A stretch of 64,000 bases of DNA from positions 1,411,001 to 1,475,000 of the forward strand of contig NZ_CP045318.1 of assembly GCF_009363255.1 (NCBI RefSeq), in the 5' to 3' direction. A model generated the notes under the pieces. That model saw nothing but the letters and a program-made list of their open reading frames with translations, did not search any database and was not told where the DNA came from. The first letter of the stretch is position 1. Each line of letters begins with the position of its first letter. This document shows positions 1 through 23,583 of the stretch, piece by piece. This stretch comes from Roseivivax sp. THAF197b (GTDB taxonomy: Bacteria; Pseudomonadota; Alphaproteobacteria; Rhodobacterales; Rhodobacteraceae). Made by a program: the position numbers and the translations under genes.

Positions 1-1854
1 ACGGCCCTGGCCGTCTGGCAACCCGGAGCGCGGGGTCAGGTCGGCAGTGCCATCGAGGGGCGATTGCTGGACATGCGCTTCGCCCTGCGCGGGCCGGTTC
101 CCGCACCGCAACGTGTGGCCATCGTGGCGTTCGACGACCAAGCCGTCGCCGCGTTACAGGCCTTTCCACCTTCGCGCGCGGATATCGCCGATACCGTGCG
201 CCGCATCTTCGCCGCCGGAGCGGAGGTCGTTGCCCTCGACCTGCTTCTGGTCGATGCGCGGCCCGATGATCCGGAGCTGAGCGCGGCGCTGTCACTGGGG
301 CCCACACTCCTCGGCGTCGCTGAAGCGCCCATGGGCGCGCGCCCCACGCCACTGATACAGAAGGACGGGTTCGGCCTGATTATTGGGCTGCCGTCCGCGT
401 CGCCCCTGCCGGCACTCGGCCCCAACCCCGCATTGCAACAAGCGGCGGGCTTGGGGCATGTCACCGTGCAGCATGACAGAGACGGCATGTTGCGCCGGAT
501 GCGCCCGGCTCTGTCGCTGCAGACCCCGGAAGGCGTGGTCACAATACCAGGTCTGGCCATCGCCGCACTTTCAACGTCAGGGGCACGGCCCGAGCTGATC
601 CTGCACCGCGACCGTCCCGGCGGCGTTTTGAGCGGGTCATGGCCCACGGCCAAGCTCGACCGGCAGGGTGCGCTGCCACTCGATTATTACGGCCCCGAAG
701 CGACCATCCCGACCTATTCGGCCGCGGCGCTCTCCGAGGCTGATCTCACCGGGCGGATTGTCTTTCTGGGGGCCACGGCGACCGGTTTCGGGGATCGGCA
801 TGCCACCAGCTTCGACGCGACCCTGCCCGGGGTGGAGGCGCACGCAACGCTCGCGGCCAATCTGCTGGAGGGACGGGTTCTCCGCCGCGACCTGGCCGCT
901 TTGGGCATCGGGGGTGTTCTGGCCGTGACGGTCGCCTTGGCAGGCTTCTGGTCCGGGTCGCGCGCCCGTCCATGGGTGGCGCTTGCGCTCAGCCTTGGCG
1001 TGATCAGCGCGACGCTGCTCGCGCTTCACGCGGCGTTTCTTGCCGGATGGTGGCTGGATGCCTTGAGTGTTCTGGCCGCCCTCGGAGGCGGGCTGGCCAT
1101 TGGGACGGTCCTGCGGCTTCTGGATACGCGACGGCGGGCGGCCAACCTTGCGCGCTTCCAGTCGCCACGGCTGGTCGAGGCCATCGCCTCGCAGACAAAT
1201 CCGCTGGGAAGCCGGGCGCCGCAGCATGCCATCGTGCTTTTCGTCGATATCGCGGGCTTCACCACCCGGGCGGAACGGATGGGCCCCGCCGACACCGCGC
1301 GCTTTCTGAGCATGTTTCACCAGCAGGTCGAGGCCGCCGCAGACCCGCTTGGCGGGACGATCATGGATTTCGCGGGCGATGGTGTGCTGGTCGTGTTCGG
1401 CTTGCCCGACGCGGGCGAAAGCGATGCCGCCAATGCGCTGCACTTCATCGAGCGGCTGTTCGAAGCGGAGGCGCTGGATGACATCCATTTGCGGGTCGGT
1501 GGCCATGCAGGGCAGGTGCAGTTCAGCCTTCTGGGCGGGACGCGACACCGGATCGTGTCGGTGAGTGGCGATGTGGTCAATACGGCCAGCCGCTTGCAGG
1601 AGATTGCGAAGGGCCATGGCGTGTCGCTGGCCCTGTCCGAGCGCCTGATGGCAAGCGATCCATCGACCCGCGCATGGGCTGATGCGGCGGGCCTGACGCC
1701 TCTGGTCGATCAATCCTTGCGGGGCAGGCAGGCGCCTGAGACGATCTGGATCGGGATGCCACCGCCCAAGCAGAACGCGGCACCGGCGCGCCACATGGGC
1801 GCATTCCCGCGCGCCTCCCAGACGACACGCAAAAGCCGGAGGTCAGACCGATGA
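1..1854 (+). CDS. CHASE2-domain class III adenylate/guanylate cyclase, 5' truncated by window edge
   Basis: The reading frame is open from base 1 and the CHASE2 fold is already under way, so the true start lies outside the window; a TTG at 64 is unlikely to be the start. The order is an extracytoplasmic CHASE2 sensor (to about 880), three membrane helices (about 890-1130) and a class III cyclase domain (about 1220-1650). The two metal-binding aspartates are present (FVDIAGFT, Asp codon 1246; GDG, Asp codon 1378), as are the transition-state Asn/Arg in VNTASRL. The position that normally holds the adenine-specifying Lys appears to be Asp (codon 1366), so ATP or GTP preference is not clear. The stop overlaps the start of the downstream Crp-type gene by 4 nt, which suggests the cyclase and its receptor are co-translated. 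Confidence 0.9.
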   Translation, partial: TALAVWQPGARGQVGSAIEGRLLDMRFALRGPVPAPQRVAIVAFDDQAVAALQAFPPSRADIADTVRRIFAAGAEVVALDLLLVDARPDDPELSAALSLGPTLLGVAEAPMGARPTPLIQKDGFGLIIGLPSASPLPALGPNPALQQAAGLGHVTVQHDRDGMLRRMRPALSLQTPEGVVTIPGLAIAALSTSGARPELILHRDRPGGVLSGSWPTAKLDRQGALPLDYYGPEATIPTYSAAALSEADLTGRIVFLGATATGFGDRHATSFDATLPGVEAHATLAANLLEGRVLRRDLAALGIGGVLAVTVALAGFWSGSRARPWVALALSLGVISATLLALHAAFLAGWWLDALSVLAALGGGLAIGTVLRLLDTRRRAANLARFQSPRLVEAIASQTNPLGSRAPQHAIVLFVDIAGFTTRAERMGPADTARFLSMFHQQVEAAADPLGGTIMDFAGDGVLVVFGLPDAGESDAANALHFIERLFEAEALDDIHLRVGGHAGQVQFSLLGGTRHRIVSVSGDVVNTASRLQEIAKGHGVSLALSERLMASDPSTRAWADAAGLTPLVDQSLRGRQAPETIWIGMPPPKQNAAPARHMGAFPRASQTTRKSRRSDR

Positions 1855-2567
1855 GCACAATGTCGGACGATAGGTTGGTCCACCTGCGCAAATGCCATTT
1901 GTTCACCGATGCGCCGGAGGAGAGCCTCGCGGGCCTTGCGCGCGCAAGCTCGGTCCAGACGGTGGAGCGCGGGGCGCAGATCTTCGCCACGGGCGATGAG
2001 GCGGATGGCCTGCGCATCGTCCTGTCTGGCCAGGTCCGGATCTGGATTGCCGATCGCGAAGGCCGCGAGCTGACCCTCGTCTTTGCCGAACCCGGCGATC
2101 CCTTCGGGGAGATCGCCCTTCTCGACGGTCTGCCGAGATCCGCCTCCGCCACCGCGCTGGAGCCGACCCGATGCCTGTTCCTGCCGGTCCGGGCCATGGC
2201 CAATGCGCTCGAAGCCGATACCGCGCTCGCGCGCCACCTGATCGAATGCCTCTGCGAAATCCTCCGCCGGAATGTCAGCACGATCAGCGGCTTTGCCTTT
2301 TCCAGCCTGGACACGCGGCTGGCGCGCGGGCTCTACGATCTTGCACTCGACAATGCCGAGATCGCGGACGGGCAGGCGCGCTTCACCCGGCGGTATTCGC
2401 AAAGCGACCTCGCGCAGCTTCTGGGCGCGACGCGGGAGGCCGTCAACAAACGGCTGCGCGCGTTGGAGCATGACGGATTGCTCGCCCGGGACGGGCAAAT
2501 GTTGATCCTGCCGGATTTGCCGGGGCTCGCGAAACGGGCCGAGATCGAGCGTGATCTCGGGGTTTGA
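1851..2567 (+). CDS. Crp/Fnr-family transcriptional regulator with cyclic-nucleotide-binding domain
   Basis: This is a 238-residue protein with an N-terminal cNMP-binding beta-roll (about 10-125), a dimerisation helix and a C-terminal winged helix (SQSDLAQLLGATREAVNKR, about 183-201). The phosphate-binding cassette FGEIALLDGLPRSASA keeps Glu87 and Arg96-Ser97, the residues CRP uses to hold cAMP. No Fnr-type iron-sulfur cysteine cluster is visible. It starts inside the stop of the cyclase gene (ATGA overlap), so the pair looks like a signal-producer plus signal-receptor unit. That it responds to the product of its neighbour is inference. Target genes are unknown and no obvious CRP palindrome was found nearby. 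Confidence 0.92.
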   Translation: MSTMSDDRLVHLRKCHLFTDAPEESLAGLARASSVQTVERGAQIFATGDEADGLRIVLSGQVRIWIADREGRELTLVFAEPGDPFGEIALLDGLPRSASATALEPTRCLFLPVRAMANALEADTALARHLIECLCEILRRNVSTISGFAFSSLDTRLARGLYDLALDNAEIADGQARFTRRYSQSDLAQLLGATREAVNKRLRALEHDGLLARDGQMLILPDLPGLAKRAEIERDLGV

Positions 2568-2636
2568 TGCCGGCACCGACCGCAACGCGGCGCATTTGCG
2601 ACGGCCCCCGCGATGCAGAGACGGGTTTCGCCGCGA

Positions 2637-2665
2637 CTTGCCCGCCCATGATGCCAAACCCATAT
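2637..2665 (+). promoter_or_regulatory. Putative RpoH (sigma-32) heat-shock promoter of htpX
   Basis: CTTGCC (2637-2642) and ACCCATAT (2658-2665) are separated by 15 nt. They resemble the sigma-32 elements CTTGAA and CCCCATnT (4 of 6 and 7 of 8 matches). The site ends 35 nt before the htpX start, and htpX is a heat-shock gene in many bacteria. The assignment is by eye only. Confidence 0.45.
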
Positions 2666-2700
2666 TTGCGACACGACGATGGTGAAGGGGCCTGCGCAGC

Positions 2701-3636
2701 ATGGGTTACGTGAAGACAGCGGTACTGATGGCGGCCATGACCGCGCTTTTCATGGGCGTGGGCTATCTCATCGGTGGATCCGGCGGCGCGATCATCGCCC
2801 TCGTAGTCGCGGCGGCCATGAACATCTTCACATGGTGGAATTCTGACCGGATGGTCCTGCGCATGCACGATGCGCAACCGGTCATGCCGGGCGACCGCCT
2901 TGGCCTGCACGCGATGGTGTCGGAGCTCGCGCGCGGCGCAGGCATGCCGGAGCCCAAGGTCTACCTGATCGACACGGCGCAGCCCAATGCCTTCGCGACA
3001 GGGCGCAACCCGCAGAACGCGGCCGTGGCGGTCACGGCTGGCCTCGTGCGGACGTTGAACCGTGAGGAGCTGGCGGGCGTGGTCGCGCATGAGCTTGCGC
3101 ATATCCGCAATCACGACACGGCGATCATGACCGTGACAGCCACCTTTGCCGGTGCGATCTCAATGCTGGCCAACTTCGCGCTGTTCTTCGGCGGCTCGCG
3201 CGAGCGGCTCGGTCTGGTGGGCACCTTGCTCATGATGTTCCTCGCGCCGATGGCGGCCGCGTTGGTGCAGATGGCGATCAGCCGCACCCGCGAATATGCC
3301 GCCGACAAGGCCGGGGCCGAGATCTGCGGTGAGCCGATGTGGTTGGCCTCTGCGCTGGAGAAGATCGCGCTCGGCGCTGCGAGAATTGACAACGACGCGG
3401 CGGAGCGGAACCCGGCCACGGCCCATATGTTCATCATCAATCCGCTGCACGCCCATACGCGCGACAAGCTCTTCGCGACGCATCCCGCAACGGAGAACCG
3501 CATCGCTGCCCTGCGCGAGCTTGCCGCGCAGGGCGGTCGGGCAGGGGGGCCGGTGTCGCGCTCCGCGACGCAGCCGATTTCGCGCAGCAGCATACCGAAA
3601 ACCGGCGGGCGGCGGCCCAAAGGCCCCTGGTCCTGA
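2701..3636 (+). CDS. htpX: Zinc metalloprotease HtpX (membrane protein quality control)
   Basis: This 311-residue M48B peptidase has two N-terminal membrane helices (about 5-45), then the zinc motif HELAH at 130-134 with the third ligand Glu198 in REYAAD, and another hydrophobic stretch (about 147-193). HtpX degrades misfolded inner-membrane proteins with its active site facing the cytoplasm. The length fits the family, and the proline/glycine/arginine-rich C-terminal tail after about 275 is variable among homologues. It stands alone, 133 nt after the Crp-type gene, behind a heat-shock-like promoter. Confidence 0.96.
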
Positions 3637-3874: not shown

Positions 3875-4129
3875 ATGCGTTCCCTGATTGCCGCGATCTT
3901 CATCGCAGCTGTTGCGACACCGGTCATTGCCGATAGCACCACCGGAACCGTCCTTGCATTCGACCGGAAGGCGAATGTCATCGTTCTGACCGACAAGACC
4001 GTCTGGTCGCTGGAAACCCTCGAAGAGGTGCCAGCGGACCTCAAGGCGGGCGACGTGATCGAGATCGATTTCCGCTCCAACGCCGATAATGGCTGGGACA
4101 AGATCAACGCGGTCGTGATCAAAGGCTGA
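3875..4129 (+). CDS. Small exported protein, DUF1344-like
   Basis: This 84-residue protein has a clear Sec signal peptide (about 1-19, ending VIADS). A short beta-rich domain follows (TGTVLAFDRKANVIVLTD, then LKAGDVIEIDF), which resembles DUF1344 periplasmic proteins and may be a small OB- or SH3-like barrel. The function is unknown. It stands alone, 238 nt after htpX, and the family assignment is tentative. Confidence 0.7.
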   Translation: MRSLIAAIFIAAVATPVIADSTTGTVLAFDRKANVIVLTDKTVWSLETLEEVPADLKAGDVIEIDFRSNADNGWDKINAVVIKG

Positions 4130-4456
4130 TCGCGTCATCGCCGTGTCTGCCGTTGCCGGACAGGCGGGGCGGCACCGAACCCGGCTTTGGTACCCACGAG
4201 ATATGCCAAGCTGCGCCATCGCTCTGCCGGTGGCGCAGCATCACGGTCTGCAAGGCGCAAGAACGCCTCGCCCGCCGCAAATCCGTCTGCGCGCCCCGTG
4301 CCGCCAAAACGGCGATGATCCGCCGCGGAACAATCGGCACGGAACAAATCAGGTGACCCACGGCGTTTTACTCGCGACGCGCACGGGTTGGCCGCTGCGT
4401 CCGCTTCAGAAGCGGGGGCGGAGAGGTCGCGTGCGACGCAATTCAGGAGAGTGAAG
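4130..4456 (+). other. Intergenic region upstream of the OmpA-family gene
   Basis: These 327 bases hold no convincing gene. Short open frames on both strands have no family features. The last bases carry a good ribosome binding site (AGGAGA, 4445-4450) for the ATG at 4457. A long 5' leader for the outer-membrane gene is possible, but no known riboswitch was recognised. Confidence 0.5.
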
Positions 4457-6433
4457 ATGAAAACCGGTATCCTCAAGACAACGACGGCCCTGGCCCTGGT
4501 GGCCAGCCTTTCCAATCCGGCGCTTGCACAATCGGCGTTGGATCTGGGCGGGATGGACCCGGCCGCCGCACGTGCGCTTGTCCTTGAAGAACGGGCCGCC
4601 GCAGAGGCGGCAGGCAATACCGAGCTGGTCCAAGAGCTCAATGCGATGATCGCGGATCTCGATGCGCAGATAGATGCAGCTTCTGACACCGCGTCCGAGC
4701 AGGAGGCTGCACCCGCTGCCGAGGCGGAAGCCGAGCTCGAAGCGGAAGCCGAAGCCGAAGCTGCCTCCGAGGCAGAAGCCGAAACAGACACAGAAACAGA
4801 GGCAGAGGCTGAGGTCGAATCCGAGGCCGAGGCAGATCCGGCACCGGCTCCGGAAGCCGCGCCCGAGGCGGCGGATAGCGCCGTTGACGCCTCCGAGCCT
4901 GCCGAAAGCGCAGAACCCGCCGAAGGCAGCGCTCCGGCCGATCCCGTAGCGGAGGCCGAAGAGGCACCCGTCGTAGAGGATGCGGAAGCCGCCACTCCCG
5001 ATGCGGACCCTGCGGCTGAGGCAGGCACGGAAGCCGCAGCCGATGAGGACGCGGATTTGGAAGCCGCCCTCGAAGCCGCTGCTGAAGAGGAGGCAAACTC
5101 CGCTTCCGAGAGCGAAGACGCAGCCCCTGCGGCAGAGCAGGAAGACGCGGCTGACGCCGAAGCAGAAGCCGAAACAGCCGAAGACGCCGAAGCTGAAACC
5201 GAGGCCGAGGCCGAAACGGAGGCTGAGACCGAAACCGAAACCGCGACCGGCACAGAGGCGGAAACTGAAGCCGCAGACGAACCCGTCTCGGACGTCGTTG
5301 ACGTCGATCCGCAGGCGCAGGCAGATGCCATTGCCGAAGAGGACGCCGCGGCAAGTGCCGCAGCCGCAGACACCGCCGCCGCATCCGGCGAAGGTGCCGA
5401 GGCCGAGGTGGTCGAAGAGACCGTGACCGAAGAGACGGCCCGCTCTTCCGACGAGGAATTCGAAACCTCCATCGCGGAAGGCGATGCCGCGGCCCAACGC
5501 CAAGCCAACGACGACGATGACGACGATGACAATGACCGTCAGGACGAGGTTCTGCGGGGTGCGGGTGCCGCACTTCTCGGCCTCGGCGCGCTGGCGGTCG
5601 GCGACATCCTGCGTCCGAACGAAAGCGTCGTTTCCGATACCGGTGACCGCGTCGTGGTCGAACGCGACGGGCAATTGCGCGTGCTGCGCAATGACGACGC
5701 GCTGCTGCGTCAGCCCGGATCGAACGTGACGACCTACCGGTATGACGATGGCTCCACCCGGACCGTCGTCGTGCGCGAGGACGGCTCCGAGATCGAAACG
5801 ATCCGGGCTCGCGATGGCCGCGTCCTGCGCCGCACGCGCACGCTGCCGTCGGGCGAAAGCTACGTGCTCTTCGACGACACGCAGACCAGCCAAAGCGTCA
5901 CGATCAGCGAGTTGCCGCAGCAATCGCAGCGCAATGTCATCAACTTCCGCGATACGGAGCAGGACGATCTGGCTACCGCGCTGTCGCAGCTGGAGGGCGA
6001 GGCGCTCGATCGGACGTTCTCTCTCAATCAGGTGCGCAACATCGACCAGGTGCGCAAGCTGATGCCCGAGATCAACGTGGATACGATCAACTTCGAGACG
6101 GGCTCCGCCGTGATCCGCGCCGAAGAGGCGGAGGAATTGCGGGCCCTGGGCCGCGCCATCCGCTCGCTGATCGAGGAGAACCCGAGCGAGGTCTTCCTGA
6201 TCGAAGGTCACACGGACGCGGTGGGCCGGGCGAGCTACAACCTCGCGCTCTCGGACCGTCGTGCGGAATCGGTGGCGCTGGCGCTGACGGAATATTTCGA
6301 CGTGCCGCCGGAAAACATGGTGATCCAAGGCTACGGCGAAAGCGATCTGCTGGTGCAGACCCAGGAAGACGAGCGTGCCAATCGCCGCGCTGCCGTGCGC
6401 CGGATCACGCCGCTGCTGCAAGCCGCCCGGTAA
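4457..6433 (+). CDS. OmpA-family outer-membrane/peptidoglycan-linking protein with long acidic low-complexity region
   Basis: The ATG at 4457 is chosen over one at 4388 because it follows AGGAGA and begins a clean Sec signal peptide (about 1-24, ending ALA). The 658-residue protein has a long segment of Glu, Ala, Asp and Thr (about 74-350), a run of seven Asp (352-358), a hydrophobic Gly/Ala/Leu stretch (about 365-385), a beta-rich middle and a C-terminal OmpA domain (about 540-650). The OmpA domain keeps the peptidoglycan-binding pattern TDAVGRASYNLALSDRRAES. The C-terminal domain should bind diaminopimelate in the cell wall. The acidic region is probably disordered and may bind cations. It is transcribed alone and ends at paired hairpins. 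Confidence 0.9.
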   Translation: MKTGILKTTTALALVASLSNPALAQSALDLGGMDPAAARALVLEERAAAEAAGNTELVQELNAMIADLDAQIDAASDTASEQEAAPAAEAEAELEAEAEAEAASEAEAETDTETEAEAEVESEAEADPAPAPEAAPEAADSAVDASEPAESAEPAEGSAPADPVAEAEEAPVVEDAEAATPDADPAAEAGTEAAADEDADLEAALEAAAEEEANSASESEDAAPAAEQEDAADAEAEAETAEDAEAETEAEAETEAETETETATGTEAETEAADEPVSDVVDVDPQAQADAIAEEDAAASAAAADTAAASGEGAEAEVVEETVTEETARSSDEEFETSIAEGDAAAQRQANDDDDDDDNDRQDEVLRGAGAALLGLGALAVGDILRPNESVVSDTGDRVVVERDGQLRVLRNDDALLRQPGSNVTTYRYDDGSTRTVVVREDGSEIETIRARDGRVLRRTRTLPSGESYVLFDDTQTSQSVTISELPQQSQRNVINFRDTEQDDLATALSQLEGEALDRTFSLNQVRNIDQVRKLMPEINVDTINFETGSAVIRAEEAEELRALGRAIRSLIEENPSEVFLIEGHTDAVGRASYNLALSDRRAESVALALTEYFDVPPENMVIQGYGESDLLVQTQEDERANRRAAVRRITPLLQAAR

Positions 6434-11235: not shown

Positions 11236-12207
11236 TTAGCTGCCGATGTCAGAGAGAAGCTGCTGGTGGTTTTCCACCTGCGTGGCCCAATAGGCGCGGG
11301 TCTCTTCCTCGTTCATCGGCAGGGGCGAGAGGCTCTCGGAGACGAGGTAGTTCTGCCATTCCTCGCTGTCGTAGACCTTGCCGAAGACATCGCGGTAATA
11401 GGCCGCGGCCTCGTCCGACATGCCCGGCGCGCCGACGATGGCCCGCTGGTTGTAGTACGAGAAGTCGTGGCCCTTTTCCTTCATCGTGGGTACGTCCGGA
11501 TAGGCCTCCATCCGCTCATCCGAGAAGGCCAGAAGAGGGACGAAATCGCCCGACTCGTAGAAGCCCTTGGCCTCGGCGGGGTTGTTCACCGTGGCCATGA
11601 TCTGCTTGCCCGCGAGATCCTTGGCGACCGCGCCACCACCATCATAGGGGATGTACTTGATATCGAGGTCGTAGGCGCCCGACATGTAGGCGATCACGAT
11701 GCTGTCCTCCTGGCCCGATCCCGTGCCGCCCATGACGTATTCGCCGTCCATGGACTTCACCTCTTCGACGAATTCCTCGAAGGTGGTGATGCCGCTATCG
11801 GCGTGGACCCAAAGCACGAAGGGATCGACGCCCATCATGGTGATCGGCGTGAAGGTCTCGATATCCACACCGAGGCCATCCTGCCGGATCGGGGTCGTGT
11901 AGAAGGAATTCAGCGTGACCATCAGCGTGTGATCCGCGTCGCGCGCATTCATGAGGTGGAGAAGGGCTTCCGCGCCCGACCCGCCGCCGCGGTTCGTCGG
12001 CACGAGCGGACGGTTCGTCATGTCCTCGGCTTCCACGACCGATTGCACGAAGCGTGCGATCTGGTCGGCGCCGCCGCCCGGACCTGCCATGATGGTGAAA
12101 TCGATGGGGCGTTTCGGCTGCCAATCCTGGGCCATCGAGGCCACGGGCAGGGATGCCAGCAGGGTGCTGGCGGCAGCGCCCAATAATGCTCTCTTGGTCA
12201 GTGTCAT
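11236..12207 (-). CDS. tctC: Tripartite tricarboxylate transporter substrate-binding protein TctC
   Basis: The ATG at 12207 is preferred to an upstream one at 12297 because it follows GGGAGG and begins a Sec signal peptide (about 1-28, ending SMAQD). The 323-residue mature-type protein has the Bug/TctC pattern: KRPIDFTIMAGPGGGADQIAR near the N-terminus and GGGSGAEALLHL, then AGKQIMATVNNPAE. It captures the carboxylate in the periplasm. An acidic residue seems to be retained where Bug proteins contact the ligand, but the ligand cannot be predicted. It is the first transporter gene and lies 125 nt downstream of the stress-protein gene. Confidence 0.94.
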   Translation of the reverse strand: MTLTKRALLGAAASTLLASLPVASMAQDWQPKRPIDFTIMAGPGGGADQIARFVQSVVEAEDMTNRPLVPTNRGGGSGAEALLHLMNARDADHTLMVTLNSFYTTPIRQDGLGVDIETFTPITMMGVDPFVLWVHADSGITTFEEFVEEVKSMDGEYVMGGTGSGQEDSIVIAYMSGAYDLDIKYIPYDGGGAVAKDLAGKQIMATVNNPAEAKGFYESGDFVPLLAFSDERMEAYPDVPTMKEKGHDFSYYNQRAIVGAPGMSDEAAAYYRDVFGKVYDSEEWQNYLVSESLSPLPMNEEETRAYWATQVENHQQLLSDIGS

Positions 12208-12332
12208 TCGTCGTCCTCCCTTTGAACGTCCGGTGTCCCGGACCAGTGGTTCGCGTCCTTCGCGAGTATCCCTTCCTGCGTAACCGACCCCCGACATGTC
12301 GCGGTGCTCGGATCCGGTGCAGGCGCAGGAAT

Positions 12333-13184
12333 TCAGTGCGCCATCAGGACCGCCATCTCTGTGCGGTCCACGATGCGTTCGGTATTTCCGCCGAAGAGAA
12401 TCTCGGTCTCGTGGCTGTGGCTGTAGGCGCCGGTGACCAGCAGGGTCGCGCCGATCTCCTTGCAGGTCTTGAGAAGGGCCGTCGCGGGATCCTTGCCGTC
12501 CATGCGTACCAGTTCGGCCTTGATGCCGCGCAAAGCGTAATACTCTGCCAACTCGTCCGCGCCGGGCCCGTGGGGTTCGCCCTTGCCACCCGTGAGGATG
12601 GTCACGCGCTTGGCCATCCCGACAATGTCCAGCGACGAGGCCACGGCGCGTGACGCGGGCAGGGAGCCGTTCCAGCCGATCGCCACGTGATCCGCGAAGG
12701 TCGCGTCCGGGCGCAATTCGCCGGGGCAGAGCAGAACCGGACGTCCCGCGCCGTAAAGCGCCGACTTCAGTGAGCTTTGGCCGAGGTTCCGTTCCCGCTG
12801 CGGCTTCGGCAGGACGATCACATCGGCGAGCCTGCCCTTGTGGCGCACCATGTCGGCCATCTTCTCGGGCTCTTCGGAAAAGGTGCAGGTGACGCTTCCA
12901 TCAGTCGCAGCACCTTCCTTCAGCCCATATTCGGCAGCCAGCTTATGAAGGATCTTGCGCAGATGCTCTTCCTGGCGGTCTGCCAGTTCCACGGCCTGGC
13001 TCATCATCGTCTTGCGGGCGAATTCAGGCATCGCAAATCCCTGCGGGATCATGTCTTTCGCCTGAACCCGGCAATGCACGACATTGACGCGCGCGCTGTG
13101 CCTCTTGGCCAGTTCCGCCGCATGCGCGAGCACGGTTGAGACCATGCCATCCCCTCTCACGGGGACCAAAATGGACTTAATCAT
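12333..13184 (-). CDS. Universal stress protein, tandem UspA domains
   Basis: This 283-residue protein begins MIKSILVPVRGDG and holds two UspA-like halves (about 1-145 and 155-283). The second half ends with LLVTGAYSHSHETEILFGGNTERIV, which matches the G-2x-G-9x-G(S/T/N) ATP-binding pattern only in part. Usp genes often accompany TRAP and TTT uptake operons in Rhodobacteraceae. It is on the same strand as tctCBA, with a 125-nt gap that could hold a promoter of its own. The role in the operon is unknown. Confidence 0.88.
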   Translation of the reverse strand: MIKSILVPVRGDGMVSTVLAHAAELAKRHSARVNVVHCRVQAKDMIPQGFAMPEFARKTMMSQAVELADRQEEHLRKILHKLAAEYGLKEGAATDGSVTCTFSEEPEKMADMVRHKGRLADVIVLPKPQRERNLGQSSLKSALYGAGRPVLLCPGELRPDATFADHVAIGWNGSLPASRAVASSLDIVGMAKRVTILTGGKGEPHGPGADELAEYYALRGIKAELVRMDGKDPATALLKTCKEIGATLLVTGAYSHSHETEILFGGNTERIVDRTEMAVLMAH

Positions 13185-13863: not shown

Positions 13864-15474
13864 ATGGTGACTGCGGTTGGCTTTCAGGGTGTCGTGAATG
13901 GTGTTCAGACCGACCTGGACACATTGGGCGGATATTCCTCCGACATCGGAAGCGTGCTGTCGGGCGCCGAAACCGTCCTTGATCTGCCGGGCGAGCTTGA
14001 GGACGAGTTGCGGGATGCGGCTGATACGATCGACCTTCCGAATTCGATTGTGACAGCTCTTGGCGCCGTGCCGTTCGGGATCGGGACAGCCATCCGCCAA
14101 CTCGACAATGTCGCGAATTCGGTCTCGGGCACGGTGGACGACCAGGCCGATGTTCTGGCCGCTCTGGATGCGTCATGGCAACCGACGCGCAGCATCGTCG
14201 ACAATGCACAAAGCGTGAATACCACCATCGGCGCGTCCATCTCCGGCCTCGCTACGGCAAATCAGGACCGCGTGGAGCAGGCCGATCTGCTGGTGGCCAG
14301 CTTGGGCGATCAGCAGATTTTCGAAGGATCTGAACTGGCTGCGCGCATGGCGGGGTATTCCCAACTGGCCGGAAACTGGAACAGCCTTCTGGATGCAGGG
14401 GTGCAACCCGTTCAGGCGGCGCTGTCCGATTTGCAGACCGCCATCGACGCGATCGAGAACGCGGTGCCCAGCCTCAGTGGCGTGTCCAATGCGCTCGACA
14501 GCGCGCTTGGGGTCTTCAGCGGTGCTGCGGGTATTGCGAATGACATCGAAGACGCGTTGGACGTGACGATCAACCTGCCGTTTCCGCTGCCCGACATCAA
14601 TGTTCTCGATGTCCTGCAAACGATCACCGAATGGATCGATACGATTGTCGGGATCGTGGAAGACTTCGTAATCGATGTGCTTGCGGATATCGGCATCGAC
14701 ATCCGCGGCGTGTTCGACTCCATCGCCGACGAGATGCTGGGGTTCCTCGACCCGTTCTTCGATCAATTCGACGTGCTGGGCGAGGCCGTGGCACCACTCT
14801 TCCAGAACCTGACCAGCGCCATCAGCACCTTGCAGACCGCCTTCGCCGATCTGGTGGCAGATGCTGAGGAGATTGTCGGATCGCCCCAGCTTCTCGACAA
14901 CGTGGTGGTGGGGCTCGACACGGGCGACGCGCCGAACCCCGCCGACACCCTGACCGGCGATGGGGCTTCGAACGCCATGTTTGGTCTTGCCGGTGACGAC
15001 AACCTGCGCGGGGGTGTGGGGGACGATTTCCTGTTCGGGGGCACCGATAACGACACAATGATCGGAGGCGCTGGCAATGACGAGATGTTTGGCGGCGCGG
15101 GCAACGACGTGGTGCTGGGCGTCGCGGGCGACAACCTTTACGACGGTGGGGCGGGCGATGACCGCCTGATCGCGCAGGACGGAGACGACACGCTGATCGG
15201 CGGCGCCGACCGCGACCTGATCGTCAGTGGCGGCGGGGCGGACAGTTTCGTGTTCATGGCCGGTGCCGATACCGACATCGTTGTTGATTTTCATAACGAT
15301 ATCGATACCTTGCTGGTCGATGCGGATTTGGCGGGTGGCCTTGGCGCTGCCGATTTCGTGCAGCAGAACGCGATCACTCTCAACGGTTTCACAGCATTGA
15401 AGGTGGATGACGATGTCATGATCCTCTTGGGCGTGACCAAGGATCAGCTGCAGAACGATATCGAGTTCATCTAG
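13864..15474 (+). CDS. RTX calcium-binding protein with uncharacterised helical N-terminal region (type I secretion substrate)
   Basis: This 536-residue protein has no Sec signal. The first 360 or so residues are unlike any family I recognise: they are acidic, rich in Leu, Val, Asp and Ala, with regular helix-forming heptad-like spacing and no cysteine. Residues about 365-470 contain around ten nonapeptide RTX repeats of the GGxGxD type (for example GGAGNDEMFGGAGNDVV) that bind calcium. The last 60 residues form the usual C-terminal T1SS signal region (SFVFMAGADTDIVVDF onward). It is probably exported by an ABC/HlyD/TolC machine that is not encoded next to it. A surface or adhesion role is a guess. 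The nearest genes are unrelated. Confidence 0.85.
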   Translation: MVTAVGFQGVVNGVQTDLDTLGGYSSDIGSVLSGAETVLDLPGELEDELRDAADTIDLPNSIVTALGAVPFGIGTAIRQLDNVANSVSGTVDDQADVLAALDASWQPTRSIVDNAQSVNTTIGASISGLATANQDRVEQADLLVASLGDQQIFEGSELAARMAGYSQLAGNWNSLLDAGVQPVQAALSDLQTAIDAIENAVPSLSGVSNALDSALGVFSGAAGIANDIEDALDVTINLPFPLPDINVLDVLQTITEWIDTIVGIVEDFVIDVLADIGIDIRGVFDSIADEMLGFLDPFFDQFDVLGEAVAPLFQNLTSAISTLQTAFADLVADAEEIVGSPQLLDNVVVGLDTGDAPNPADTLTGDGASNAMFGLAGDDNLRGGVGDDFLFGGTDNDTMIGGAGNDEMFGGAGNDVVLGVAGDNLYDGGAGDDRLIAQDGDDTLIGGADRDLIVSGGGADSFVFMAGADTDIVVDFHNDIDTLLVDADLAGGLGAADFVQQNAITLNGFTALKVDDDVMILLGVTKDQLQNDIEFI

Positions 15475-15603: not shown

Positions 15604-16866
15604 TCAGCCCCGGATCAGAATGGCCCGGAAATCGTTCACATTGGTCAGGGTCGGCCCCGTCTCGATCAGACAGCCCAAGCGCTCGAACACGCTGAAACTG
15701 TCATGCGCCGCAAGCATCTGACGCGCATCGAGGCCTGCGAGGGCTGCGTCCCTCGGAAAGCCCGCGTTGATGATCGCCCCGGCCGCGTTCTCGGTCCCGT
15801 CGATGCCGTCCGTGTCCGCGGCAACGGCGCAGATGCCGTCATGGCCATTCAGCGCGAGCGCGAGGGACAGCAGGAACTCGGTGTTGCGCCCCCCGCGACC
15901 GGGCTTCGTGTCGCCGACTGTCACGGTCGTCTCCCCGCCGGAGATCAGAACCGCAGGCGGCGCAGCAGGCGTTCCGTGGCGCGCCACAGCCTTGGCCATC
16001 CCGGCCATCACGGTGCCCAACTCGCACGCCTCTCCCTCCAATGCATCCCCCAGGAGAACTGGCGTTACGCCCGCGGCTCGCGCGACCTCTGCCGCGGCCT
16101 CAAGCGAGGCTTGCGGCGTTGCGATCAGGCGATAATCAGGCTCGAAGGGTTCGGCATCCGGGGAGGGGGCACGCAGCATGTCCTGCGCGGCCTTGGGCAG
16201 CGACGCGCCGAGTTTGTCGGCGAGATAGGACAGGTCTGCCTGCGCCGTCGGGTCGGGCACGGTCGGCCCGGACGCGATGGCTTCAGGGTCGTCGCCGGGC
16301 ACATCTGAAATCGCGAGCGTCACGAGCCGCGCATCTTTCGCCGCGCGCGCAAGTCCGCCGCCTTTCACCTGCGAGAGGCGGCGGCGCACCTTGTTCATCT
16401 CGGAGATCGACAGACCGGAGGCCAAGAGGAGCCGGTTCACCGCAACGAGATCGTCGAGGGTCAGCGGTGGCCGGGGCAGAGACAGCAAGGACGAGCCGCC
16501 TCCGGAGATCAACGCGAGAACCAGGTCGTTCGGCCCCGCCTTGGCCGCTTCCTCCATGATCTCCCGGGTCGCAGCCTCTGCCGCGGCATCGGGCACCGGG
16601 TGGGCGGCCTCTCGGACGGTGATCCGATCGGTCGGGACCGCATGCCCGTAGCGCGTCACGACGACGCCCGTCAGATCGACATCGGGCCAGGCCTGCTCGA
16701 CCGCGCGCGCCATGGAGGCCGCCGACTTCCCGCCGCCCACGACGATGCAGCGCCCGCGCGGCTTCTCGGGCAGGTGGGACGCCAGGACCCGCGCCGGATC
16801 CGCCGCGCCGATGGCAGCATCCAGCATCCGCCGAAGCAGGTCTTGTGCATCATCGTCGGTCATCAT
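15604..16866 (-). CDS. Glycerate 2-kinase, MOFRL family (TtuD/GckA type)
   Basis: This 420-residue protein has the family marks VVGGGKSAASMARA, ALISGGGSSLLSLP, NKVRRRLSQVKGGGLA and, in the C-terminal MOFRL domain, GRGGRNTEFLLSLAL with DTDGIDGTENAAGA. The family phosphorylates D-glycerate to 2-phosphoglycerate; older literature calls the tartrate-operon member TtuD a hydroxypyruvate reductase. It starts 7 nt after the dehydrogenase stop, so the two are co-transcribed. A plausible path is tartrate to oxaloglycolate and hydroxypyruvate/glycerate, with this enzyme feeding glycolysis. Confidence 0.92.
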   Translation of the reverse strand: MMTDDDAQDLLRRMLDAAIGAADPARVLASHLPEKPRGRCIVVGGGKSAASMARAVEQAWPDVDLTGVVVTRYGHAVPTDRITVREAAHPVPDAAAEAATREIMEEAAKAGPNDLVLALISGGGSSLLSLPRPPLTLDDLVAVNRLLLASGLSISEMNKVRRRLSQVKGGGLARAAKDARLVTLAISDVPGDDPEAIASGPTVPDPTAQADLSYLADKLGASLPKAAQDMLRAPSPDAEPFEPDYRLIATPQASLEAAAEVARAAGVTPVLLGDALEGEACELGTVMAGMAKAVARHGTPAAPPAVLISGGETTVTVGDTKPGRGGRNTEFLLSLALALNGHDGICAVAADTDGIDGTENAAGAIINAGFPRDAALAGLDARQMLAAHDSFSVFERLGCLIETGPTLTNVNDFRAILIRG

Positions 16867-16873
16867 CTACCGC

Positions 16874-18016
16874 TCAGATATTCTCGCCGCGGATGGCTTC
16901 GCACACGGCGTCGGTGACTTCCTGCGTGGTGGCCGTGCCGCCCACATCCGGTGTCATGATCCCGTCGGCGCAGACTTTCTCCACCGCGCGCATCAGGCGT
17001 TCGGAGGCATTCGCTTCGCCCAGATGGTCGAGCATCTGGCTTGCGGTCCAGAAGGTGGCCACGGGATTTGCGATGCCCTTGCCGGTGATGTCGAAGGCCG
17101 AGCCATGGATCGGCTCGAACATGGAGGGATAGCGCCGTTCGGGATCGATATTGCCCGTGGGCGCCACGCCGAGGCTGCCTGCCAGCGCACCGGCGAGGTC
17201 CGACAGGATGTCTGCGTGCAGGTTGGTCGCGACGATGGTGTCGAGGCTCTTGGGATCCTTGACCATGCGCACGGTCATGGCATCGACCAGCATCTTGTCC
17301 CAGGTCACGTCCGGGAAATCCTTGGACACCTCGGCCGCGATCTCGTCCCACATCACCATGCCAAACCGCTGGGCGTTGGACTTCGTCACCACGGTCAGGA
17401 GTTTCCGGGGCCGCGACCGGGCCAGTTCGAACGCATAGCGCATGATCCGCGTGACGCCGGTGCGGGTGAAGATCGACACTTCCGTGCCGACTTCCTCGGG
17501 CATGCCCTGATGCGTGCGTCCGCCATTGCCGGAATATTCCCCCTCGGAGTTCTCGCGCACGATGACCCAGTCGAGATCACCGGGGCCGACACCGGCCAGA
17601 GGCGAGGTGATGCCCGGCAGGATCTTGGTCGGGCGCACATTCGCATATTGGTCGAAGCCCTGGCAGATCGGCAGGCGCAGACCCCAGAGCGTGACGTGAT
17701 CCGGCACATCGGGCGCGCCCACGGCACCGAAGAAGATGGCGTCGAAATCCTTGATCTCGTCGCGTCCGTTCTCGGGCATCAGCGCGCCGGTCTTCTTGTA
17801 GCGCTCCGAGCCCCAGTCGAATTCGGTGACGTCGAAGGTGAAGCTACCGTCGCGCCGGGCCAGTGCCTCGAGCGCCTGCAATCCGGCGGCGATCACCTCT
17901 GGGCCGATGCCGTCGGCCGGAATCGAGGCGATCCTGTAGGTCTTCACCGCATCACCTGCCGCGTGTGATTGGCCGGACGGCGCAGTCGCGGGCTTGCCCT
18001 CTGTCAGGATCGTCAT
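16874..18016 (-). CDS. ttuC: Tartrate dehydrogenase/decarboxylase or D-malate dehydrogenase
   Basis: This 380-residue beta-decarboxylating dehydrogenase of the isopropylmalate/isocitrate family has RIASIPADGIGPEVIAAG near the N-terminus, the substrate-arginine region WGLRLPICQGFDQYANVRP, VRENSEGEYSGNGGR, and NLHADILSDLAGAL plus FEPIHGSAFDITGKGIANP for metal and NAD. WGLRLPICQ and the Tyr/Lys set fit tartrate/D-malate enzymes rather than LeuB. An extra 20 residues or so precede the conserved core. It is the first gene of a two-gene minus-strand operon with the glycerate kinase, divergent from lysR. A composite operator lies 61-96 nt upstream of its start codon. Confidence 0.9.
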   Translation of the reverse strand: MTILTEGKPATAPSGQSHAAGDAVKTYRIASIPADGIGPEVIAAGLQALEALARRDGSFTFDVTEFDWGSERYKKTGALMPENGRDEIKDFDAIFFGAVGAPDVPDHVTLWGLRLPICQGFDQYANVRPTKILPGITSPLAGVGPGDLDWVIVRENSEGEYSGNGGRTHQGMPEEVGTEVSIFTRTGVTRIMRYAFELARSRPRKLLTVVTKSNAQRFGMVMWDEIAAEVSKDFPDVTWDKMLVDAMTVRMVKDPKSLDTIVATNLHADILSDLAGALAGSLGVAPTGNIDPERRYPSMFEPIHGSAFDITGKGIANPVATFWTASQMLDHLGEANASERLMRAVEKVCADGIMTPDVGGTATTQEVTDAVCEAIRGENI

Positions 18017-18051: not shown

Positions 18052-18081
18052 AGCGTACAGGCAGGCGATTGCGCTTCTCAA
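18052..18081 (-). promoter_or_regulatory. Putative promoter of the dehydrogenase-kinase operon
   Basis: On the minus strand TTGAGA (18081-18076) is followed after 18 nt by TACGCT (18057-18052). The same layout (TTGAGT, 18 nt, CACACT) occurs in front of the transporter genes at 19082-19111, and both sit at the end of the shared composite element. Confidence 0.5.
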
Positions 18082-18112
18082 TTCCACGTCGATTATATAC
18101 TTAAATGAAATA
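18077..18112 (-). promoter_or_regulatory. Copy 1 of composite LysR-type operator (ttuC/lysR intergenic)
   Basis: Read on the minus strand towards the dehydrogenase, the site is TATTTCAT-N6-ATATAATC-N6-GAATTGAG. The first two blocks form an imperfect dyad of the LysR T-N11-A kind. Copy 2 (19051-19086) has all three blocks at identical spacing. The right end lies 22 nt before the lysR start codon, so binding could also control lysR itself. Confidence 0.7.
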
Positions 18113-18134
18113 CTGACGCGATTAGAGAGCGCAT

Positions 18135-19049
18135 GTGAATATCACTCAATTGAAATGCCTGCTTGCGGCGGCGGAGACCCTGCATTTCGGACGCGCCGCG
18201 CAGTCGCTCGGTATGCTGCCTGCGACGCTTGGACGGCAGATCAAGCAACTCGAGGATCACCTCGGCGTGTCGCTGTTCACGCGCACCACGCGCGCTGTCG
18301 CACTCACGGAGGCGGGTAGTCGGATCTTGGAGGATGCCCGCGCGCTCGTCGCCCAGGCCGAGGCGTTCGAGGAAAAGGTCCGCGCCGTGCGCAGCGACGG
18401 TGAACATGTCCTCAGGGTCGGCGCGATCGATAGCGCGGCGGCCGGGTTGATTCCGCAAATCCTGCACCCGCTGCAGGCCGCGCATCCGGAGCTGAAGATC
18501 CAGATCGTCGAGCAGAAGACCATTCACCTATTGCCGAAACTTCTGAGCGGCAGCCTCGACATCGCGTTGTGCCGTCCGCCCGACATCCGGGACCCGCGAT
18601 TGGTCTTCCAGACCCTGTTCTATGAGACGGCCGTCGTCGCCCTGCCGAAATCGCATCCCCTGGCCGACCGCGAAGCGATCGAGATTGCCGATCTTGCCGA
18701 AGAGCCCCTGATCGTGCCGGACCGGCGGTCCCGACCGCATTCCCACGATCTGACCATGTCGCTGTTTCTCGGCGCGGGCCTGACGGCGCGGGTCGCGCAA
18801 ATTGCAGAAGAGAAGCAGACCATCGTCAACCTGGTGGCGGCGGGGACCGGTTTGGCCATCGTGCCGCGCTGGACGTCGCGCCTTGGCGTCAAGGGCGTGA
18901 ACTTCATTCCCCTGGCAACAACGGATGCGACCTCGCAGGCGAAACTGATCCTTGCCGCTGCATGGGCGCGGGGCACGCGAGACCGGCTTCGGGATGATTT
19001 CCTCCAGACCCTCGATGCCAATCTAGGCGTGCTCGAAGCCTCGGCCTGA
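18135..19049 (+). CDS. LysR-family regulator of the tartrate-like catabolic locus
   Basis: This 304-residue protein has an N-terminal winged helix (about 1-60; LKCLLAAAETLHFGRAAQSLGM then LEDHLGVSLFTRTTR) and a C-terminal periplasmic-binding-like effector domain (about 90-295). The alpha-1 region is a little unusual in lacking the common RLS pattern. It is divergent from the dehydrogenase-kinase operon and 126 nt upstream of the TAXI-TRAP genes, with a candidate operator on each side of it. That geometry argues that it controls both halves of the pathway; the effector is probably the imported hydroxy acid or a metabolite of it (inference). Confidence 0.93.
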   Translation: MNITQLKCLLAAAETLHFGRAAQSLGMLPATLGRQIKQLEDHLGVSLFTRTTRAVALTEAGSRILEDARALVAQAEAFEEKVRAVRSDGEHVLRVGAIDSAAAGLIPQILHPLQAAHPELKIQIVEQKTIHLLPKLLSGSLDIALCRPPDIRDPRLVFQTLFYETAVVALPKSHPLADREAIEIADLAEEPLIVPDRRSRPHSHDLTMSLFLGAGLTARVAQIAEEKQTIVNLVAAGTGLAIVPRWTSRLGVKGVNFIPLATTDATSQAKLILAAAWARGTRDRLRDDFLQTLDANLGVLEASA

Positions 19050-19050
19050 T

Positions 19051-19086
19051 TATTTCATAACTGAATATAATCCGTGACGAATTGAG
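19051..19086 (+). promoter_or_regulatory. Copy 2 of composite LysR-type operator (upstream of TAXI-TRAP genes)
   Basis: TATTTCAT-N6-ATATAATC-N6-GAATTGAG begins 2 nt after the lysR stop and points towards the transporter. It matches copy 1 at all 24 block positions; within the first 22 nt 17 positions are identical. The end is 89 nt from the start of the binding-protein gene. Confidence 0.7.
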
Positions 19087-19111
19087 TTGGAGACGCTCCT
19101 TCGACCACACT
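19082..19111 (+). promoter_or_regulatory. Putative promoter of the TAXI-TRAP operon
   Basis: TTGAGT (19082-19087) and CACACT (19106-19111) are separated by 18 nt. The -35-like hexamer is part of the conserved GAATTGAG block. The -10-like hexamer is poor (C at the first position), as expected for a promoter that needs an activator. Confidence 0.45.
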
Positions 19112-19175
19112 CTTCCTCGGAGGACGCGCCACATCAGGATGCGTCACGAGGGGAATACAACGGAGGAGGAAACCG

Positions 19176-20144
19176 ATGAAATTCACCACATTTCTTGCCG
19201 CCGCAGCATGCGTCGCAGCATTGCCGGCAGTCGCGCAGGACAATGCGGACTGGCCGAGCAGCCTGACCATCGGCACAGGCAGCCAGGGCGGCACCTATTT
19301 CGGCTATGGCAGCGGCTTCGGCGCGATGATCAGCGAAGAGCTGGGCGTCAATGCCGGCGTCGAGATCACCGGCGGCCCGGTGCAGAACGTCACGCTGGTC
19401 GAGGCGGGCGAGCATCAGCTCGGCTTCGTCACGCTCGGCCCCGCCGATGAAGCGCGCCGCGGCGAAAGCCCGCTGATGCCGGGCACGCCGCATGAAGGCG
19501 TGCGCGCGCTCTTCCCGATGTACCAGACGCCGCTGCAGGCGGCCGTGCTGGCATCCTCGGATATCGAGAGCTTCCAGGACCTCGCAGGCAAGCGCGTGGG
19601 CGTCGGCCCCGCGGGCGGCACATCGGCCACCTACTGGACGCGCTTTTTCGAGAACGCGGAAGGTTACGGCGATGTGACGATCTCCAACGCGGGCGGCTCG
19701 GACACGGCCGGTCAGCTCAAGGACGGTCTGATCGATGCGTTCGTCTATGCTGCGGGTCTGCCGACGGGCGCCTATTCGCAGCTCGCCGTCGAAAACGACG
19801 TGCGCTTCCTGTCGATGGATGACGAGACGCTGGCGACCATGAAGGAAATCGTGCCCGCAATGGCCGATTTCACCATCCCCGCGGACACCTACGAGGATCA
19901 GCCCGAGGATCTTCAGACCGTATCGCTTTGGAACTTCGCCATCGCGCATGAGGACATGCCGGAAAGCCTCGCCTACGAGATCACGGCACTCGCCATGGAA
20001 AACCATGACCGCATGATGACCAACCATGCTGCCGCACGCGAGACCCTGCCGGAGAACGTCTCCAAGAACACCGTCATCCCGTTCCACCCGGGCGCTGCCC
20101 GCTGGTTCGAGGAGAACGGCTTCGACGTGCCGTCGGTCGAGTAA
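19176..20144 (+). CDS. TAXI-family TRAP transporter solute-binding protein
   Basis: This 322-residue protein has a Sec signal peptide (about 1-21, AVAQD) after a good ribosome binding site (GGAGGA). The mature part begins PSSLTIGTGSQGGTYFGYGSGF, the start typical of TAXI proteins, and contains GKRVGVGPAGGTSATYWTRFFE. It delivers a carboxylate to the fused TRAP permease encoded next. It lies downstream of lysR behind a copy of the composite operator. A tartrate-like or malate-like ligand is inferred from the dehydrogenase; TAXI ligands are hard to predict. Confidence 0.93.
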   Translation: MKFTTFLAAAACVAALPAVAQDNADWPSSLTIGTGSQGGTYFGYGSGFGAMISEELGVNAGVEITGGPVQNVTLVEAGEHQLGFVTLGPADEARRGESPLMPGTPHEGVRALFPMYQTPLQAAVLASSDIESFQDLAGKRVGVGPAGGTSATYWTRFFENAEGYGDVTISNAGGSDTAGQLKDGLIDAFVYAAGLPTGAYSQLAVENDVRFLSMDDETLATMKEIVPAMADFTIPADTYEDQPEDLQTVSLWNFAIAHEDMPESLAYEITALAMENHDRMMTNHAAARETLPENVSKNTVIPFHPGAARWFEENGFDVPSVE

Positions 20145-22650: not shown

Positions 22651-23583
22651 TCATTCGATCTGGACGATTCCGGCAAAACGGTCGCGGATCACGTCGCGGA
22701 TGAGGGTCGCCATGCGCTGGATCAGTTCGCGATGCGCGGCCCGCCGCCGCCACGCCAAACCGATGGAGCGTGTGAGACGATCCTTGCGAAAGGGCCGGAC
22801 AACCACGTCGCCGGTATCGCCCGAGACCTCGGAGCGCACGTAAAGCGCCGGAAGGAAACTCACGCCCATATCAAGCGCCGTCATCTGCCGCACGGCATCA
22901 AGGCTCGTCCCTTCGTAATCGCGCCGCAGGTTCGCCCCGACCTCTTCGCAAAGTGCCGCGATTTGCGTGTGTAGCCGGTAGGCGTCGGACAGACCGATGA
23001 CATCGAGCCCGGCAAGATCCGAAGGCGCAATATTCTGCCGGGCGGCGAAGGGATGATCCTGTGCCATGGCAAGCTTCAGAGGCTCCCGAAAAAGCCGCTG
23101 CGTTTCGATATCGGCGGATGAGACCGGGAGCTGCGTCAGGATGAGATCGTGCTGACCCGTCATGAGTTCGTCCTGAAGCTGCAGCGGCGTCGCGTCGCGC
23201 GCGATCACCTTGAGCGCCGGGTAGGACAGATGAAGCTGGCGCATCACATGCGGCAGCAGATAGGGGCCGAGGGTCGGGGTGGAGCCGAAGCGCACAGTTC
23301 CGCCGAAGCCCGCGCGCATATCCTGCGCCAGGGCGCGGAGCGTGTCTGCCTCATCCGCAACCCGGCGCGCCTGCTCGAGCATCGTGCGCCCGTGTGGCGT
23401 GAGGACCGCGCCGCGTTGGCCGCGCTCCACCAGTTCCACGCCGAGGGCCTCTTCCAGCGCCACGATCTGCTGGCTGAGCGACGGCTGGCTGATGCCGACA
23501 CGCTCGGCCGCGCGCCGGTAATGGCGCGTGTCCGCAAGTGCGAGGAAATAGGTCAGCTGTCTCAGCGTGAAATCTGCGGGCAT
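22651..23583 (-). CDS. OxyR-like LysR-family regulator lacking the peroxidatic cysteine
   Basis: This 310-residue protein has the OxyR layout: LRQLTYFLALADTRHYRRAAERVGISQPSLSQQI, then VELVERGQRGAVLTPHG, TPTLGPYLLPHVMRQL and SLDAVRQMTALDMGVSFLPALYV. Aligned by eye with E. coli OxyR, the peroxide-reactive Cys199 falls on Arg203 while the resolving Cys208 falls on Cys212, with the same 9-residue spacing. A normal disulfide switch is therefore not possible. It may sense another signal, or be an OxyR paralogue. It is divergent from the YdcH-like gene rather than from a catalase. Confidence 0.88.
   Translation of the reverse strand: MPADFTLRQLTYFLALADTRHYRRAAERVGISQPSLSQQIVALEEALGVELVERGQRGAVLTPHGRTMLEQARRVADEADTLRALAQDMRAGFGGTVRFGSTPTLGPYLLPHVMRQLHLSYPALKVIARDATPLQLQDELMTGQHDLILTQLPVSSADIETQRLFREPLKLAMAQDHPFAARQNIAPSDLAGLDVIGLSDAYRLHTQIAALCEEVGANLRRDYEGTSLDAVRQMTALDMGVSFLPALYVRSEVSGDTGDVVVRPFRKDRLTRSIGLAWRRRAAHRELIQRMATLIRDVIRDRFAGIVQIE

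Follow-up and report, generated by a model that had tools for sequence, protein, structure and literature searches.

Within the window, by which we mean the whole 64,000-nucleotide stretch of DNA analysed here, a gene for a LysR-type regulator lies between a dehydrogenase-kinase operon on the minus strand and TAXI-TRAP transporter genes on the plus strand. The features of the locus are:

15604..16866, minus strand: MOFRL-type glycerate kinase (TtuD-like), with DUF4147 and MOFRL domains
16874..18016, minus strand: tartrate/D-malate-type decarboxylating dehydrogenase (TtuC-like); TIGR02089, best PDB match 3flk
18052..18084, minus strand: promoter 1, with the third block GAATTGAG (18084-18077), the -35 hexamer TTGAGA and the -10-like TACGCT; TTG and TAnnnT are kept in close relatives
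18091..18115, minus strand: operator 1, the 25-bp inverted repeat CAGTATTTCATTTAAGTATATAATC of the GATTAT-N13-ATAATC type, a proposed LysR recognition site present in 44/44 loci; it faces the dehydrogenase-kinase operon and overlaps the likely LysR promoter
18135..19049, plus strand: LysR-type regulator (TtuA-like), with HTH_1 and LysR_substrate domains
19048..19072, plus strand: operator 2, the 25-bp inverted repeat GATTATTTCATAACTGAATATAATC, of which bases 1 and 2 are shared with the LysR stop codon
19079..19111, plus strand: promoter 2, with the third block GAATTGAG (19079-19086), the -35 hexamer TTGAGT and a weak -10, CACACT
19176..20144, plus strand: TAXI-family TRAP solute-binding protein; TIGR02122
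20239..22446, plus strand: fused TRAP permease; TIGR02123
22651-23583: second LysR-family gene, just past the permease

The dehydrogenase belongs to the Iso_dh family and scores 575.4 bits against the TIGR02089 tartrate dehydrogenase model (cut-off 470.4); its best solved relative, PDB 3flk, is a tartrate dehydrogenase/decarboxylase, and we predict from these matches an enzyme of the tartrate/D-malate type. Glycerate 2-kinase models match the kinase with scores under their cut-offs. The regulator carries an N-terminal HTH_1 domain (PF00126, 70 bits) and a C-terminal substrate domain (PF03466, 134.3 bits), and it is 55% identical to the Agrobacterium vitis protein of locus L030. On the transport side, the TAXI protein reaches 220.5 bits with TIGR02122 (cut-off 84.35) and the permease 652.8 bits with TIGR02123 (cut-off 320.65). 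Further out, a TctC-family receptor gene adjoins a UspA-like gene at 11236-13184 of the window, and, as judged by eye, an ORF with RTX-like Gly/Asp-rich repeats adjoins the dehydrogenase operon both here (13864-15474) and at L114:5094-7169.

The initial annotation described a three-block composite operator, TATTTCAT-N6-ATATAATC-N6-GAATTGAG, occurring twice with all 24 block positions and both N6 spacings alike. As a reading of the sequence this is exact: the element occurs with 0 mismatches at 18112-18077 on the minus strand and at 19051-19086 on the plus strand. The hexamers TTGAG(A/T) and (T/C)AC(G/A)CT said to follow each copy are also as described, namely TTGAGA (18081-18076) and TACGCT (18057-18052) on the minus strand for promoter 1, and TTGAGT (19082-19087) and CACACT (19106-19111) on the plus strand for promoter 2, each pair read from the sequence with an 18-nt spacer. 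The LysR gene stops with TGA (19047-19049), and the GA of this codon also forms part of the first half-site of operator 2. Allowing up to 3 mismatches, the composite element has 0 matches in 100 dinucleotide shuffles of the window, and a scan of all 4.24 Mb of the genome finds nothing beyond these two copies and no match to a reversed control pattern.

The perfect identity of the two copies is not itself a functional requirement, an idea we rejected: in 11 other close loci the two sites are both kept, with 14 to 23 of the 24 block positions common to the pair. The looser pattern GATTAT-N13-ATAATC matches 55 places in the same genome at up to 2 mismatches (reversed control, 3); with 0 mismatches it matches site 2 only, and none of the matches listed has 1 mismatch. 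We do not claim a third target in this genome, the composite element at up to 3 mismatches being confined to the two known sites.

We aligned the regions upstream of LysR from 44 loci, comprising the window, 39 of 41 from a search of contigs and four from whole genomes; L042 and L043 were dropped from the locus set as distant hits. Also dropped were copies of the window (L001, L002, L044), duplicates of other loci (L045, L049, L051, L104-L111, L118, L119, L120, and L095, which duplicates L040) and distant LysR proteins (L052-L063, of which L054 and L055 form the outgroup in the LysR tree). Our method takes the one best site in each region, so that control regions serve as the yardstick. All 44 aligned loci have the upstream site, which spans 25 columns, scores 18.0 to 43.0 bits and has the approximate consensus NATTATTTCATTTTTTTATATAATC, while best scores in 11 control regions, those that follow LysR and have no TAXI gene, run from -27.8 to 6.6 bits. 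Seven further loci have the site as well: L121, L122 and L113-L117, the last five being a biased sample, as they were found by the pattern.

The profile of this site agrees best with its own reverse complement when centred on column 13 (r = 0.69, against 0.30 for the second-best centre), giving GATTAT-N13-ATAATC, and information averages 1.15 bits per column inside the dyad, compared with 0.14 over the preceding 12 columns and 0.15 over the following eight. From this symmetry, blocks 1 and 2 together make up a single inverted repeat, one half each, which starts 3 bases further out than the blocks did, and a three-block operator is ruled out; block 3 is the -35 region, more widely conserved only as TTG. 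The sequence of the initial annotation's operator thus stood and its anatomy did not. A T-N11-A pair is also present, with T at column 6 in 43/44 and A at column 18 in 37/44, one base off the best centre of symmetry. The 25-bp inverted repeat looks typical of a LysR recognition site, and we expect the regulator to bind it.

The conserved blocks could instead be read as a core promoter, given that ATATAATC contains TATAAT, which in both copies of the window is a -10 hexamer without any deviation. What is conserved, however, is the full 25-bp dyad with GATTAT as its left half; the preceding 12 columns, needed for a -35, average the 0.14 bits given above; TATAAT itself varies to TATGAT and TATAAA in relatives; and among the 394 family genomes searched the pattern is confined to those with this LysR. 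We therefore regard a core promoter as a very unlikely explanation and treat the dyad as an operator.

Beyond the dyad, T at column 35 is invariant, and a TTG stands there, at a 22-bp offset from the dyad centre, in 38/44 upstream regions. On the transporter side the same offset carries TTG in only 11/32 downstream regions, and in L010, L011 and L047 it is absent. In the nine closest loci, the side facing the dehydrogenase keeps ATTGAG and TAnnnT; the side facing TAXI keeps ATTG(A/T)G, and its CAnnnT box is weaker. By arithmetic from the proposed -35, the predicted dyad centre is at about -58. For LysR proteins, recognition usually takes place near -65 and the activation site is found near -35, PnpM/PnpR being an example (PMC5603801), and the conserved TTG at its 22-bp offset would fit an activation site at -35. 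Our locus resembles activators of this type in having an inverted repeat followed by a conserved TTG over the proposed -35, a centre near -58 and divergent genes; it differs in that the best symmetry is GATTAT-N13-ATAATC and in that one regulator would serve two operons that flank the gene encoding it.

Site 1 may have a further role. On the plus strand it contains TATACT (18096-18101), a possible -10 of the LysR gene, so autoregulation of LysR through this site is likely. Other signals may lie nearby: the upstream regions of L014, L015, L017, L019, L021, L023 and similar loci share, by eye, the stretch GTCAAGTTGCGATTGTC about 15 nt past the TTG, which may be another promoter element, and 16/44 upstream regions have a TTG at column 54. 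Between promoter 2 and the TAXI start (19119-19175 of the window) there is a possible leader hairpin whose shape is kept in nine sequences; 90.7% of its cells are paired, against at most 61.1% when the alignment is slid, yet 168/500 shuffles do as well.

The initial annotation had proposed a search of related genomes for the element together with the orthologous LysR. Searching DNA only, at up to 2 mismatches, we found the composite pattern in 13/394 family genomes, all 13 of which encode this LysR; the reversed control had one match (G269). Fourteen of the 15 pattern matches adjoin LysR; the other one is an additional match in G025. Among 198 genomes that were also searched for LysR, eight have a hit at E < 1e-100, and the pattern occurs in 6 of these 8 and in 0 of the other 190; the two strong LysR hits without the pattern at 2 mismatches are in G024 and G170. 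The extra copy in G025 (L112:4213-4250; G025:C25:12213) is 9.7 kb from the LysR site and has a TTG near the expected offset. It overlaps the 5' portion of a His/Asp-rich ORF (4124-5062), after which come ABC-type genes, and nothing here evidently points to tartrate.

These counts also bear on which protein uses the sites. A second LysR-family gene lies just past the permease (22651-23583), and this or another regulator could in principle be the one that binds. No ORF in the related loci matched the second regulator better than other proteins, within flanks reaching at most about 1 kb past the permease, whereas the first LysR is present in each, and pattern and first LysR co-occur in 13/13 genomes. 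We thus consider it highly improbable that another regulator binds the sites and continue with the first LysR as the candidate protein.

The locus is accessory and has probably moved horizontally: 2/9 genomes of the window's genus have this LysR, and in the LysR tree its nearest relative is that of Palleronia pelagia (97%), while the congener's is 84% identical.

For the second site, we scanned downstream of LysR with a matrix built from upstream sites only, leaving out the locus under test. Of 30 loci in which a TAXI gene follows LysR, 29 have a site starting at most 17 bases from the LysR stop, the exception being L028, and each of the 29 sites beats all 100 of its shuffles. L023 likewise has both TAXI gene and site, so that 30 sites were compared with shuffles, with 0 of 100 as good in each case; L115, L116 and L117 also have both, these three scored without shuffles, which brings the total to 33/34 loci with TAXI after LysR. 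By contrast, no site was detected beside LysR in 13/14 loci without TAXI and with at least 1 kb visible beyond LysR (10 from the first scan together with L113, L114 and L121); in L050 a weak site is seen, which at 6.6 bits outscores all of its 100 shuffles, though no TAXI gene lies beside the LysR. At an interim table of 30/1 vs 1/10, a Fisher test gave p = 8e-8, with rows that are non-independent by descent, and the TAXI-less rows fall in three places only on the LysR tree (L113, L114 and L121 not placed). We left two loci out of this count: L013, whose LysR runs off the contig, and L016, which has a site and 317 bases beyond LysR. Orthologous loci lacking the element had been singled out beforehand as the observation that would count against the proposal, and we find the upstream element in 44/44 loci and the downstream one in 33/34 with TAXI.

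Two natural variants of the locus lend further support to this link. In Mameliella sp. MMSF_3455 (L008) an ORF intervenes between LysR and TAXI, and the displaced TAXI gene keeps its own copy of the site. The intervening ORF (L008:5415-6317), a DUF4886 protein, has its own operator, promoter and leader copy and, by eye, a TAXI-like signal peptide at its start, all of which appear duplicated; if this duplication holds, the ORF would be a third member of the regulon. On a Paracoccus plasmid (L122) an SLC13 permease stands in the TRAP position; the site after LysR scores 26.2 bits there and has its TTG in column 35.

Directly observed here are the sites themselves, how symmetric and how conserved they are, and that they occur together with this LysR and with a transporter gene. 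Going beyond these observations, we think it quite probable that one LysR activates both TAXI-TRAP uptake and tartrate-type catabolism through two matching dyads, with binding, activation, ligand and autoregulation all inferred from sequence. The initial annotation had already proposed one LysR for uptake and catabolism, and the 44/44 upstream sites, the 33/34 downstream sites as against 13/14 TAXI-less loci without one, and the 13/13 genomes support it. In the mechanism that we propose, LysR (18135-19049) would activate the tartrate-type catabolic locus in which it lies, sitting as a tetramer on GATTAT-N13-ATAATC before the dehydrogenase-kinase operon and before the TAXI-TRAP genes. On binding the inducer, LysR would place its second dimer on the TTG-containing -35 region, two helical turns on, and would recruit RNA polymerase to promoters with poor -10 boxes, while the overlap of site 1 with the likely LysR promoter would limit LysR's own expression. 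The TRAP system would import the acid, the dehydrogenase would convert it (most likely tartrate) to glycerate, and the MOFRL kinase would yield 2-phosphoglycerate.

A comparable system is known in A. vitis, for which a review gives the suggested roles as induction of the other ttu genes for TtuA, a part in tartrate entry for TtuB, and tartrate degradation for TtuC and TtuD (PMC4811896). In L030 (A. vitis) and on an A. vitis plasmid (L121), LysR is divergent from genes for an MFS transporter, a tartrate dehydrogenase, a glycerate kinase and a pyruvate kinase; this gene order is that of the TTU operon, and an inverted repeat lies between LysR and the transporter. The tartrate-type reading of the initial annotation is supported by the dehydrogenase model score (TIGR02089, 575 bits, cut-off 470) and by gene order in common with these A. 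vitis TTU-type loci. The window shares with them a related LysR divergent from a tartrate dehydrogenase and a MOFRL kinase, with the same inverted repeat between. Unlike them, it has no MFS gene between LysR and dehydrogenase and no pyruvate kinase gene after the kinase, and it has TAXI-TRAP genes with their own operator copy on the other side of LysR. Because the window has no TtuB-type MFS transporter and no TtuE-type pyruvate kinase next to these genes, we class the locus as related to the A. vitis TTU operon (ttuA-E) without counting it among its members. In Cupriavidus necator, TtdR goes with a tartrate-inducible promoter examined in reporter assays, in a paper that cites the A. vitis operon as an earlier proposal (PMC7057948); our regulator is similarly paired with promoters, whose inducibility we predict from sequence. 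What is new here is the TAXI-TRAP system with its own operator in a tartrate-type locus, together with the exchange of transporters considered below; the regulatory principle was already known.

As to the ligand, the dehydrogenase family includes enzymes for both tartrate and D-malate, and the conversion of D-malate to pyruvate requires no glycerate kinase. In the window the kinase gene adjoins that of the dehydrogenase, as it does in 16/17 other loci with the window's TAXI type; the exception, L006, has no kinase in the 387 bases visible beyond the dehydrogenase, and in L008 the kinase is in two pieces. Some relatives add a pyruvate kinase and, in Paracoccus, an enolase, making a complete route from glycerate to pyruvate. 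Since the kinase adjoins the dehydrogenase and some relatives complete this route, tartrate is favoured for the window.

It is possible that the same regulator and sites serve D-malate or another 2-hydroxy acid (tartronate, glycerate) rather than tartrate. Such a reading would account for the second TAXI type, where 14 of the 15 inspected loci lack the kinase (L040 has it; too little DNA is visible in L048), and for L006, where none is seen beside the dehydrogenase. It sits poorly with the adjacent kinase in the window and 16/17 loci of its type, with the pyruvate kinase and, once, enolase added in some relatives, as expected for a glycerate route, and with the match of the A. vitis relatives to the TTU tartrate operon. 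We consider it rather unlikely overall. Tartrate is thus our best guess for the ligand, with D-malate as the main rival, possible for the window and more so for the second TAXI type. In L015, L017, L019, L021, L023 and L039 (about 1220-3200), a second Iso_dh dehydrogenase, 47-49% identical to the first, occupies the usual place of the kinase, and the same stretch holds an alpha/beta-hydrolase-like ORF.

TAXI-TRAP transporters are described as widespread and poorly understood, and the structure of the glutamate-binding protein VcGluP is available (8s4j; PMC11574862). Glutamate is bound by VcGluP and BP0403 and has been proposed for C. sphaeroides from mutants. The window's TAXI protein is like VcGluP in family and in a sequence match over the whole mature length, and its type keeps Y45 and Y200. 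It differs at three positions, Q93 to T, E125 to T and M201 to A, in 14/14 window-type proteins, and these replacements, at positions near the glutamate amino group in VcGluP, are found in all 54 aligned TAXI proteins. Y45 is Y in 52/54 and F in two, and Q93 is T in 54/54, so that the Y45-Q93 pair, key to ligand binding in VcGluP, is not kept. The pocket replacements speak against an amino acid as ligand, without separating the TAXI groups. A TAXI-TRAP system has been proposed for o-phthalate in Pseudomonas sp. PTH10 (opaL/opaN), transport not being characterised there (PMC6362003); our locus is similar in placing a TAXI-TRAP with a catabolic pathway for a dicarboxylic acid lacking an amino group, and differs in pathway and substrate. 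Our literature search found no paper assigning tartrate or a close hydroxy dicarboxylic acid to a TAXI-TRAP, and none joining RegPrecise, tartrate and LysR in Rhodobacteraceae; in the one paper that brought TAXI-TRAP and tartrate together, tartrate came up in the reference list. A conserved operator tying a TAXI-TRAP to a tartrate-type pathway gives both a specific ligand prediction and a defined inducible promoter pair.

Across the relatives, the regulator and its operator are constant, and the transporter varies between MFS, Bug/TctC, SLC13 and TAXI-TRAP types. In Aureimonas/Aurantimonas loci, a Bug/TctC receptor gene adjoins LysR or the MFS gene (L034, assigned by Pfam; L032, L035 and L036, by similarity). 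The TAXI proteins themselves fall into distinct groups, in a tree whose bootstrap had not settled and which carries a long-branch warning. The window type forms one clade of 14 (100/99), and the second type (Marivita, Labrenzia and others), 46-49% identical, another clade of 14 (100/98), nested among TAXI proteins without such a LysR or dehydrogenase within 1.5 kb; L040 stands separately. We left L037 (Roseibium polysiphoniae) out of this tree and of the pocket count since its TAXI frame is broken; by identity, 61-72% depending on the piece, its TAXI protein is of the window type. In the LysR tree, the other 14 window-type loci share a branch (98/98) with MFS and Bug loci, and L037 is not part of it. 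In-place exchange of the transporter is the simplest reading.

It is tempting to speculate that the LysR-operator pair is a fixed regulatory socket, in which at least four transporter families and two distant TAXI lineages have been swapped in place with the operator kept; if so, both TAXI lineages would carry tartrate or a close hydroxy dicarboxylic acid. We see this extended proposal as an even call. The comparison of loci also suggests that a regulator and its operator persist when the transporter under their control is replaced.

Two minor observations concern the transporter genes. At L037:5531-8788 the TAXI gene and, by the ORF listing, also the permease gene are each in two pieces, which could be due to decay of the locus or to a sequencing fault. 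A third TAXI group of nine proteins, 57-61% identical, is found without this LysR or dehydrogenase within 1.5 kb; in L079 a neighbouring sigma-54 response regulator was confirmed, and L078 and L081-L085 look alike by eye.
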